From positions 9,955,475-10,019,474 of the forward strand of contig NC_135554.1 of assembly GCF_964340395.1 (NCBI RefSeq): a stretch of DNA of 64,000 nt. Reading direction: 5' to 3'. Shown here one piece after another: positions 54,416-59,252 of the stretch. Both the position numbers and the translations under genes were made by a program. The stretch's first letter is position 1. Each line of letters starts with the position of its first letter. The notes beneath the pieces were generated by a model, which searched no databases, was not told the DNA's origin, and worked only from the letters and a program-made list of their open reading frames with translations. The stretch is from Glandiceps talaboti (lineage: Eukaryota; Hemichordata; Enteropneusta; Spengelidae).

Positions 54416-57400
54416 TTACCACCCCGTGATGTGAACACCATGTACTTGACAGTCTCTACCGCCATTCTGACATTCGCGAATTGCTATCTGAATAAACCGA
54501 TGATACTATGAAAGAAAGTGATAAAGTAAATGAAATGATGAAGCATATCTATGCACGAAGACAATCCGAACTTTCAAGAACGTTTTGCAACTGACTAGAT
54601 TAACTCAGTGCGGGTCTAAGCTAGCGTTATTGGTACAGAAAATAACAGTTTCCGTTGTTACATTGAAGATATAGCATCACCTGTCACACTATCTGAATTA
54701 ATTAAGTCCCATAAACAAATAATGATGTTTTTACAAAAATGAACGTAAACAATAGGTGTCACTGGTATGGCGTAAAATAGTTTATTTATTCCTTGAAAAA
54801 TAGTCGTTTAATAAATTTGGTACAAACATCAAGTGGGAGCTTGATTATTCAAAATACTTTTCTTACTTTGTCATCAGTTTAGTTGATTATCGTGTTATTG
54901 TAAAGGTATATACTATGCAATTATTGCCAGTTTAGAATATTGACATTTGAAAATCCAATAAATTAAGTTCAACAAGTGCACCATAATTGTTTGATTAAAC
55001 ATGACTGTATTTGTATTTCAAATATCGACTACCACAGCAATGTATCCGTATCAAAGATTTCAGAAAGAATATTCATCAACCAACGGAGGATGATTGCTCA
55101 CTCAAATTATAAAGTACTAGTATTCTCTGAGGGAATTACGAGATAATGAATTAAAATTTGGAGAGATAGAAGCAGATGTTTAAAAGTGTCATTTCAATCG
55201 TGTCAGAGGTAATTATACAACATGGGACAAAGAATAATAGACAGACACCGGTATGATATATTCGCTAATATGTACTATATATACATATTTGATCTGTCGT
55301 GAACAAATATCTGTATATCCTAACATTAACCACAAAATTAAAACATTTGTTTAAATGAAATAATGTCCTTAAAATATGGTTCTATGAGCTTACATACAGT
55401 ATATTACATATCTCCATCTCCATCTCCATCGACGAAAGCCATCGCCTGATACTTTCTTTAAAACAGAAATCAAGTAGTCATTGGATGATACTCTATGGCA
55501 TCAAAACGCTCACCTGTGTTTGATTTTGGAGTAACGTAACCATGGATTCAGTGTCTCCAATATATATGGTTATAAGATCTCTCAATGCGGATATTGTATC
55601 TCCAACAGACACAACTACCTTACACGGTTGGTAGCTCTCATCTTTTGGATCTACTGACATACACAGTTTATCAACCAATATGTCGTCATGTATTTCCAGA
55701 CGAATCCAATGCTGCAAATAAAAGTAGCAGTGTAATTCAGATATACAAGTATTACACTTGTTAATTATCACCTGTTTCAAAATTTTCTGTCACGTGATTT
55801 GATTCGGAACTGAGTAATAAGATCTTATTTAGGTGTTCATAAATTTGCACCTACTCTCGCTATTACTGGAGACACTGAGTGGGACTCGTGTATTGCACGT
55901 AGGCGGGGTAATATGGCTCAGTATTGGAACAGACTTTGTACCCTTGACAGTGATAGGTTAATCAGTAAGATTTTCATTTGGGACTATGCTCTGTGTGTCG
56001 GCAATTGGTCTTCTGAGATGTATGATATATTTGAAAGTATAGATCGATACTACCGAATTGACACACATTGTGATTTTGACCTTGTCAGGTTACGTAAACA
56101 CTCAATTTGTATGGAAAATTCTCACCACCACGTTCGTAATAAACCAAAATTACGGACGTATGGTATTTTTAAAACCACATATGGATGAGAAAAAATCATT
56201 TGTATAATTATTTCATCATCGTAGTAGTTACTTCTTTCCATCTTCCCGTTTCTTTAGAGAAGTTATTTAATTTCATCACATAATAAATACACATGACAAA
56301 TGAGCCCGCTGGGCTGGGTGATGAGTGTAAATTTTCTGTTCTTTTTGCCATGGTAACTAGTAGTTGTATATCCACATATCACTATAATAGACAGCTCTTA
56401 CTTACTTTAACATAGAGTCATAAAGACGAGTGTTGTGATACAAGTATTGATTAACTGTGTTGATCAATATATAGATTGCAAAAAATAAAAACGTAGAATC
56501 CTATCAAATATTACTTGTTGATTTTATTATGATATAGTAAATTACATACAAGTTTACCACAGTTTAAAGCTGCCTTTAGTAAATCCACTAGAACAATTAT
56601 AAGCAGTATAACCTCCAAGTACCCAATGAGTTATTCTCCTATTTAGAGCATGCATGCTTTTCCATATAGTGAGCCTTCAGTAACTACAAGGGGGAAGGGA
56701 GGACTGGGGAATCGGTTCTTGGGGGAGGGCCATATTTTAGAAAATTGGCTTAGGGGAGGGTAACATTTTATTGTGACTAACTGTATTGTCTAAATAAGCA
56801 TTATTTATTCATTTTGGCATCTATGCATATATATGCATAGTTGTATGGAAACCCCATGCAATATAGCTGGTATGTGCACTTTGTGACCTCACAAAATTTA
56901 ATATAATTTTGATTGTTGACACTGACTTTGCATCGCTATTAGCTCTTTATATGAGGTGCTCAAAACATATTTCACTTTTTACTATAGCATTCGCGTAACC
57001 ATGGTAATGAACATCCCAATGTTAATTGCCGTAAGTTATGGCTTAGCCTGGGTTAGGGGTAGGTATCATAATATCTGACTACTTCATCAAATCGTTGTTG
57101 ACAACCATGCGGTATTATAGTGAACAGTGTCGTCACATAAATAAACTGTAGTGGTAGTAGTGGTTGGGGAAGTAATCAATGCCTTTAACACTTTCAACAT
57201 GGTGGCAGCGGTGGGATTAATTCCTTTTCACCATTGATTCTGGGACTAGTGTCCTTTTCCATGTCTGACAGCATTTAAACCATGTTTTAGAAATATTTTA
57301 ACCGGGGGAGAGTCATATCTTAGAGAAGGGAAATTGAGGGAGGGTCACTTTTTTTGAATGACGGAATCGGGGAGGGTCACATTTTATGCAACAGCCCTCC

Positions 57401-59252
57401 CCCTTGTAATTACTGAAGGCTCCCTTAATAATCTCAACTCTATCGACTAAAACAATTTACACTTCATGTTTTTAGACAATCCCTTCCATTTTTGAGGACA
57501 ACTCTATCTTCAATTCACGCTTTCTTAAAAGGAAAGGTCCAGTTAGGCTTATTTCTGGCTATTGCCATGGCTATTGCCATTTGTCTTGAAAAGAATTGCG
57601 GTAAATGTGACGCCATTTCCTGCATGGTTATCGACACAAACCCTCGCAGAATTATTTATCAAATGACAGACCACATGAGTACATTTGGACTTCTGTGCAT
57701 CTTTGGGCCTTGGCAGCAGTATATTTACTTACCATTCGCGCTGGATCTGATGACTGCCAGTATGTAGATGGATTGCCGTCATTCAGTTGCCGTAACAAAC
57801 CCCCATTGGACGATACTGACAGATTCTTGACACACTCATTCCATTCTGTGTGATTTTCCATGTAAATAGAGGGGCAAAATAATGCAACCGTCATTCACAC
57901 ATTTAGTGGCATACTCAATGTAGCAAGTTGATTGTCACAGTGACCTTTGACATTAAATCTTGTCTTTGTTCTTTATGATATATTTTGTTCTTATCGCTCT
58001 CTCTCTCTCTCTCTCTCTCTCTCTCTCTCTCTCTCTCTCTCTCTCTCTCTCTCTCTCTCTCTCTCTCTCTCTCTCTCTCTCTCTCTCTCTCTCTCTCTCT
58101 GTTGCCTTTGTTTATGCTGATAATTTGGATGTCTAAAAACATGTCCAACAAGTGTATTTATTATAGTAACAACATACCTGTGCACTTCCTTGTCATTTTC
58201 AGCTGACCCAGACTCTTCTCTGCACGGAAGCCAGAAGGTTTGAATTCGATGTAATCGTTCTCTACTGGATCGAGTTTAGTTTTACAAGTCAGTAACTTGT
58301 CTATCTGTGACGTCACTCCTGTCCTCATTGACATCACTTGGCTAGGAGACCCATTGTTTATAAGTCTCTCTGCAAATTCTCGTGAATGTGTAAGATCACT
58401 TTGTAGACCTTCGATCTCTTTTAATTGTGCTTGTAGATTTGTTTTACGTTTTCCTTGTTCACTTTTGAGTTCAGTTAGAATCGTGTCTCCAATAATGTTG
58501 ATGTTTTTCATAGTGTTTTCAATATGTTCTCTGACTTTCCTACTTTCTTCCTCAAAGCGCTGGTCCAAAGAAGTTATCATTTTCCGGACAGTGGCTTCAC
58601 CTTCGGTGATGTCGTCATATTTGGTCGTCAGACTGTTGATCATCCCAGATATTTTGGTTTTGACTTCCGTAGCAACATCTGTCAGATATCTATATTCGTG
58701 TTTACTCTGTGGATGGTCAGTAACCGTACACTCCAGACAAATAACCTTGTCACATGTATCACAATACAATTTTAACTGATTGCCTTCATGTTTGCTGCAG
58801 TAGATCGGCGGCTGAACCGAAACTGGGTCAGTGGATTGCAGTCGGCGATACTCATCAAAGGCAATGACCTGATGGGTGGTGGGGAAATTAGCATGCTGTG
58901 TGGTTGCACAACTCTCGCACAGCTCAATAGCACATTCATAACAATATTGAGTTGTGTTTCCTTGTTTCTTACACCCCCCACATTGGGATGCCGGTGGCCT
59001 CTCAACTTGTCTCATTAGAGCAAACACTAAGGGGTCAGTTGGTAGTTGGGCGACATCACCATTTGGTACAATGTGCTGTTTTCGACAAAGCGGGCAGTTG
59101 AGCTCGCCACTCTTTACCAGCTGACCAAGACATGTTTGACAAAACGTGTGAAGGCATGGTAGAATTTTAGCATTCTTGTATCTCTTGGAGCAGATTCCAC
59201 ATGTCAAATCATTCTCGTCGATTTCAACAGATTTCAACTCCTTGCTAGCCAT
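54416..59252 (-). CDS. TRIM-like RING/B-box/coiled-coil protein with C-terminal DOC (APC10-like) domain
   Basis: Four exons: 58178-59252, 57733-57845, 55514-55711, 54416-54505. Phases agree (1, 0, 0) and give 491 residues. Exon 1 encodes a C3HC4 RING (C18-C56, with CLHTFCQTC and CPLC), B-box 1 (about 91-132), B-box 2 (about 152-193, YCSKHEGNQ and CDTCDKVICLEC) and a coiled coil (about 200-320). The last 130 residues, over three small exons, read as a DOC fold: NLSVSSNGG, LNDGNPSTYWQSS, HWIRLEIHDDILVDKLCMSV, CKVVVSVGD, VTLLQNQTQ, YHRFIQIAIREC and VHGVHI, ending ITGW. DOC domains occur in APC10, HERC2, CUL7, MYCBP2 and ZZEF1 and mostly serve ubiquitin ligation. I infer an E3 ligase in which DOC replaces the usual NHL or B30.2 module. 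A tandem paralogue lies upstream. Confidence 0.85.
56671..57422. mobile_element. Inverted-repeat element (about 752 bp) in TRIM-DOC intron 2
   Basis: The left terminus GAGCCTTCAGTAACTACAAG and right terminus CTTGTAATTACTGAAGGCTC are inverted. Subterminal GGGGGAGGGTCA-type blocks repeat inside. No transposase seen. Confidence 0.65.
57998..58100. repeat. (CT)n microsatellite, about 100 bp
   Basis: A pure run in the 332-bp intron 1 of the TRIM-DOC gene, so the pre-mRNA carries (AG)n upstream of the exon 2 acceptor. The RERE and LSLS frames here are artefacts. Confidence 0.95.

Follow-up and report, generated by a model that had tools for sequence, protein, structure and literature searches.

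Does the minus strand of this stretch of the Glandiceps talaboti genome (contig NC_135554.1) encode a single ubiquitin ligase in which a RING finger, B-boxes and a coiled coil (RBCC) are followed by a DOC domain, and from which gene would such a domain have been taken? The stretch, here called the window, is 64,000 nucleotides (nt) long, and coordinates are positions in the whole of it unless a contig is named. The gene in question, referred to as copy A, runs from 59252 to 54416 and was read from the DNA as four exons with a product of 491 residues. Copy A and a tandem paralogue upstream of it, copy B, are probably chimeric E3 genes, in which an RBCC exon of the TRIM2/3 type is joined by splicing to a HERC2 DOC domain in place of the filamin and NHL parts of the closest listed relative. 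The sequence itself shows the domains and the model with four exons, a paralogue that is intact, intron positions in common with HERC2, and a ratio of nonsynonymous to synonymous substitution (dN/dS) below 1 in both halves. In what follows, C6, C7, C9, C16 and C40 are contigs, and L followed by a number denotes a numbered locus.

The exon borders of copy A given in a preliminary description of this DNA, together with their joining in phase, were borne out (Table 1). All three introns begin with GT and end with AG, and the spliced frame of 1476 nt contains no internal stop. That a TRIM-type RBCC in one exon is joined in phase to DOC exons, as the same description had it, is supported both by the domain matches and by a four-exon paralogue with equal phases. 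RING, B-boxes and coiled coil follow one another in one chain, the arrangement that marks TRIM proteins, as judged from Pfam and, for the coiled coil, from alignment with TRIM3. Pfam reported two B-box stretches with coordinates for one only, and B-box 1 was therefore placed by its pattern. Among solved structures, exon 1 was matched best by TRIM3 (4.4e-28) and TRIM2 (1.2e-24), while no NCBIfam family scored above its cut-off. The C-terminal NHL repeats that characterize TRIM class VII are not part of the product: neither NHL nor filamin gave a Pfam match in the 491 residues at E up to 1, and HECT, RLD, CPH, ZZ and MIB were likewise missing from its Pfam matches at that threshold.

The DOC/APC10 fold is a jelly-roll beta-sandwich. 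A search with the corresponding profile was significant for the product of copy A, with an ANAPC10/DOC match of 3.1e-13 and 50.2 bits against the curated cut-off of 21. The C-terminal part had been called DOC/APC10-like; the DOC domain is indeed there, and the ranking of solved structures assigns it to the HERC2 subtype and not to that of APC10. With phmmer, human HERC2 was the best match of the DOC part (5.8e-33), followed by CUL9 (3.5e-24), CUL7 (5e-24), HECTD3 (1.7e-15) and APC10 (1.5e-10). An APC10-type domain was set aside because each of the other four outscored APC10.

Copy B was found by searching the window with the DOC protein, and the remainder of it was taken from DNA beyond the window, as it lies only partly inside. 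The same four exons and the same splice phases are present, with exon lengths of 1075, 113, 198 and 90 nt in copy A against 1081, 113, 198 and 96 nt in copy B. When joined, copy B gives 495 residues in full frame with GT-AG borders, and it has Pfam matches of its own to RING, B-box and ANAPC10, the last at 28.8 bits and thus above the same cut-off. For both copies HERC2 is the closest DOC subtype. The two proteins are 77.7% identical in the RBCC and 59.0% identical in the DOC part. The dN/dS between them, calculated with a Nei-Gojobori script, was 0.34 for the RBCC (bootstrap 0.24-0.49) and 0.36 for the DOC half (0.21-0.58); with 500 bootstrap draws per half, no finite value reached 1.

The genome was also searched with the DOC protein, and 17 matches were listed at E up to 10. 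Seven are exons on C7, belonging to copies A and B and to the relic of a third copy; three are HERC2 exons on C9, two lie in a gene on C6 (one of them at E 1.3 only), one is an APC10-like match on C16, and the remaining four have weak scores, with E between 0.49 and 7.6. On C6, locus L008 (C6:17174500-17184499) holds a DOC gene of unnamed type that includes the piece RLSNGDPASYWQSDG.

Table 1. Positions of the exons of the two TRIM-DOC copies and of the domains encoded by exon 1 of copy A
Feature	Position	Strand	Description
Copy A exon 1	58178..59252	-	start ATG, RING, two B-boxes, coiled coil; phase 1 at its 3′ border, donor CACAG/GTATGT
Copy A exon 2	57733..57845	-	113 nt; first part of DOC, EWNECVKNLSVSS...; acceptor ATCACACAG, donor GTAAGT
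Copy A exon 3	55514..55711	-	198 nt; middle of DOC; phase 0 at both ends; borders are those of the HERC2 exon
Copy A exon 4	54416..54505	-	90 nt; end of DOC and stop codon
RING finger, residues 18-56	59085..59201	-	Pfam PF00097, 7.2e-10
B-box 1, about residues 91-128	58869..58982	-	Cys/His pattern read by eye in the product
B-box 2, residues 149-188	58689..58808	-	Pfam PF00643, 2.6e-9
Coiled-coil region, approximate	58263..58670	-	placed by alignment with the TRIM3 RBCC (residues 147-337, B-box 2 included)
Copy B exon 1	C7:10020369-10021449, outside window		RBCC; 1081 nt
Copy B exon 2	63977..64000 in window; whole exon C7:10019451-10019563	-	113 nt
Copy B exon 3	62753..62950	-	middle of DOC; 198 nt
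Copy B exon 4	61948..62043	-	end of DOC and stop codon; 96 nt

A tandem paralogue with equal exons and phases supports the view that exon 1 is spliced to the DOC exons, and the two copies were compared along their length. Gapped blastn gave four blocks, one for each exon, which overran the exons by at most 22 nt; the block of exon 4 covers only the first 26 nt of that exon. Outside the exons and these margins, only one short element, located where intron 1 begins, was similar between the copies. In an ungapped comparison at the six junctions, 38-50 of 60 positions were identical in the exon flanks and 14-20 of 60 in the intron flanks, a contrast that this test overstates because indels break the alignment. 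The six pairs of 120-nt intron ends were further compared with shuffled local scores. Two pairs scored above the 95% level, two equalled it and two fell below, with the 3′ end of intron 3 (local score 24) among those above.

The likely donor of the DOC exons is found in the same genome. Three DOC exons on C9 sit on one strand among RCC1-repeat exons, a MIB_HERC2 piece and a Cul7/CPH domain, and from these RCC1, MIB_HERC2, Cul7/CPH and DOC pieces we take the gene to be HERC2; its DOC part matched human HERC2 at 5.8e-51. The two DOC introns of this gene are identical in position and phase to those of TRIM-DOC. Its middle DOC exon, also 198 nt long, has both borders in common with exon 3 of TRIM-DOC: it opens at the HWIRL codon and closes at an identical point ahead of YHRF. 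At the protein level the C9 DOC is 61.2% identical to that of copy A and 56.0% identical to that of copy B, with synonymous divergence (dS) near saturation (2.0 and 1.9, respectively). Given the common intron positions and phase, the DOC exons of TRIM-DOC most likely derive from HERC2. The first DOC exon on C9, counted from the nearest upstream acceptor, starts 75 nt before the point at which exon 2 of TRIM-DOC begins. A HERC2 segment with the DOC exons would have been placed downstream of an RBCC exon, and a new acceptor 75 nt into the first of them would have preserved the phase while removing 25 codons ahead of the domain.

The relatives of the RBCC half were sought with exon 1. At E up to 1e-10, 114 matches were listed in the genome, spread over many contigs and often in open frames of 700-800 residues; 114 of 448 candidates were scored in this search, and 30 of the 114 RBCC matches were taken into the tree. 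The best listed match outside the pair is a single-exon gene at C9:23294359 with filamin (5.5e-8) and NHL (1.2e-28), so that this paralogue carries the class VII repeats that the TRIM-DOC product lacks. In the tree, copies A and B were grouped at 100/99 and the C9 TRIM-filamin-NHL gene was their sister at 89/92. Two further loci, L034 and L033, completed this clade at 100/100, and the gene model for the second of these has a HERC2-like tail of its own.

L033 (C9:22808441-22812508), read together with L060 (C9:22803000-22808440), is modelled as a gene in which a TRIM RBCC exon is continued in phase by a pair of HERC2-like MIB exons that end in a stop. It lies on the strand of HERC2, about 27 kb beyond the HERC2 DOC exons. 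The RBCC exon can end at ACAG/GTATGT in phase 1, with the same donor sequence as copy A, and a copy of the first MIB exon of HERC2 follows about 1.2 kb downstream, in phase by our own reading. The duplicated HERC2 stretch spans 317 nt at 89% DNA identity, intron sequence included, and the exon is 93% identical at the protein level. The second MIB exon comes next with the stop directly behind it, and the joined model matched MIB_HERC2 at 4.2e-20. Diverged matches suggest that the TRIM-MIB group may extend beyond this locus. L062 has an RBCC with a filamin piece behind it and then a match to the first MIB exon (1.1e-6), and L064 has a B-box piece followed by matches to the first and second MIB exons (0.03 and 2.6e-10); at L063, MIB pieces were found with no TRIM part within the 3.2 kb examined. 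An alternative clade of copies A and B with TRIM-MIB was not rejected by the approximately unbiased test (p-AU 0.204), which makes the tree compatible with a single and with a double origin of the DOC and MIB captures alike. We tentatively propose that TRIM ligases of this lineage received ready-made docking modules from HERC2, DOC on C7 and MIB on C9, giving a new, compact RING class that takes over or counteracts HERC2 clients; this is conceivable, though we would not call it probable.

The functions of the parts elsewhere allow a mechanism to be outlined. Dimerization of the RING is required for the activity of TRIM2, according to passages of PMC9732051. For the DOC domain, recruitment of clients (CRAF/HSP90) by HECTD3 is described in part of PMC5489699, and a requirement of CUL9 for its DOC in the case of the substrate APEX2 in part of PMC11257990. 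By analogy with TRIM2, the RBCC of TRIM-DOC would dimerize and its RING would recruit E2~ubiquitin. A client or partner would be bound by the DOC domain and brought to the RING; it is probably shared, now or in the past, with the DOC of HERC2. Bringing a client of the HERC2-DOC type to a RING ligase thus appears to be the likeliest role of the chimera. Since HERC2 is still present in the genome, the chimera could divert clients of HERC2 to a RING ligase of small size, and competition with HERC2 for these clients is possible as well. The presence of a HERC2 DOC on a second ligase points to a portable domain, and a small construct of it could be used in a client search. The TRIM-DOC gene is, moreover, a natural test of the role of a poorly understood domain.

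Several observations weigh against a functional RBCC-DOC gene pair of this kind. In copy A the acceptor of exon 2 is weak, with 10 pyrimidines in 20 positions, and directly upstream of this exon an open frame contains two in-frame ATGs (MTVALFCPSIYMENHT), which makes a separate DOC start possible in this copy. Readthrough of exon 1 reaches a stop five codons beyond the donor, overlapped by AATAAA. The intron 1 element that holds this stop and AATAAA (58140-58177, minus strand, with a counterpart in copy B) is conserved beyond chance and is the strongest conserved piece of intron, with 18 of 19 positions identical between the copies and a local score of 28, where 200 shuffles reached at most 22. 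In the DOC part, ESYQP of copy A is replaced by GMCKP in copy B, and HWIRL by RRIHL. ESYxP is present in copy A and in APC10, and the corresponding motif in HERC2 is SSYxP; the changed residues suggest that the domain of copy B may be drifting, and the dN/dS between the pair is a mean across both copies. With regard to function, passages of PMC11257990 report that ubiquitylation of TP53 by CUL9 persists without the DOC domain. The DOC of human HERC2 bound none of the H3 peptides, SUMO1, ubiquitin and D-box region reported on in part of PMC9001736, where its ligand is described as unknown.

The early stop and the ATGs could be taken together to indicate two adjoining genes, an intronless short TRIM whose stop lies at 58161 (...KCTGMLLL), and next to it a small gene with the DOC alone, starting from an ATG just before exon 2. 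When tested against the paralogue, this was judged hardly credible. In copy B no in-frame ATG follows the last stop ahead of exon 2, the similarity between the copies ends within 22 nt of the exon borders apart from the intron 1 element, and exons 1 and 2 of copy A are separated by just 332 nt. Moreover, the phases agree in both copies, and the TRIM-MIB gene on C9 shares the donor sequence and phase. Alternative isoforms would account for the same element in another way: a short RBCC-only form, with early stop and polyadenylation near 58161, would be made beside the RBCC-DOC form, and the DOC domain would be switched on and off. The presence of the AATAAA-overlapped stop behind the donor in both copies is consistent with such a switch. 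However, AATAAA is frequent in AT-rich DNA, and the element may be the mark of a short isoform or left-over homology of the duplication; we regard a regulated switch as rather unlikely. Finally, the residues lost from the DOC of copy B would also suit recent chimeric pseudogenes without function, as would the third copy further upstream, a relic consisting of an exon-4-like piece alone without an acceptor AG. Copies A and B, on the other hand, have retained full frames, GT-AG borders and a dN/dS below 1 in both halves, and for these two copies the loss of function is very improbable.

Some features unrelated to TRIM-DOC were also recorded. At the start of the window, an open frame of 361 residues with RanBP2-type zinc fingers (2-1087, plus strand; Pfam 1.3e-13) runs off the edge. 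Two adjoining open frames with TM2 domains, perhaps a tandem pair, are located on the minus strand at 3516-4043 and 5595-6032 (Pfam 1.3e-10 and 1.3e-12). Contig C40 is mitochondrial DNA. Its COX1 recurs every 15435 bases at three places, so that the contig seems to have been assembled as a concatemer. Along a COX1 stretch of 447 codons, AAA is absent, AAG occurs four times and ATA four times; the four ATA codons fall at what we take to be isoleucine positions in other animals. The tRNA-Lys anticodon is CTT, and G+C amounts to 52.9% in a stretch of 4341 bases. According to passages of PMC3121625 and PMC2697986, ATA codes for isoleucine in echinoderms and hemichordates, CUU in tRNA-Lys is a trait of Ambulacraria not shared by Saccoglossus, and AAA is absent in Balanoglossus. 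The codons missing from Balanoglossus are AAA and AAG in one sentence of PMC3121625 but AAA and AGG in its Table 3; the COX1 of C40 does contain AAG. By these mitochondrial traits, the host would probably be an acorn worm of the Balanoglossus type.

The preliminary description had presented the product as a new ligase architecture. This holds for the arrangement of domains, with the ligase activity predicted from the RING and the splices from the DNA alone, and TRIM-DOC is a real, new variant of the TRIM tail. No TRIM-DOC protein was found among the literature matches listed, and unnamed database entries with the same arrangement may exist. CUL7, CUL9, HECTD3 and APC10 are likewise ligases or ligase subunits with a DOC domain, with client binding demonstrated in HECTD3 and a need that depends on the substrate in CUL9. 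Their DOC domains score below that of HERC2 against TRIM-DOC, and to our knowledge none of them is a TRIM. The closest DOC is that of HERC2, both in the human structure (7RGW), the best match given above, and in the C9 gene, with the identity stated above and two introns in common. HERC2 itself is a giant HECT ligase with RLD, MIB, CPH and ZZ parts, as described in passages of PMC9001736, whereas in TRIM-DOC the DOC domain alone follows the RBCC, with a start 25 codons further on. The likeness to class VII TRIM proteins (TRIM2 and TRIM3; RBCC-filamin-NHL) is in the RBCC, and the closest listed paralogue with a different tail carries filamin and NHL; in contrast, the TRIM-DOC product has two B-boxes and a DOC tail, with no match to filamin or NHL. 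TRIM proteins are classified by their C-terminal domain, as set out in part of PMC9732051, and in two TRIM surveys (PMC3503706 and PMC2533329) a word search of the main text returned neither DOC nor APC10. Lineage-specific capture of a tail is already known, since passages of PMC3503706 describe TRIM proteins of Branchiostoma with two MATH domains. In both cases a foreign C-terminal domain was acquired within a lineage, MATH in Branchiostoma and DOC here.

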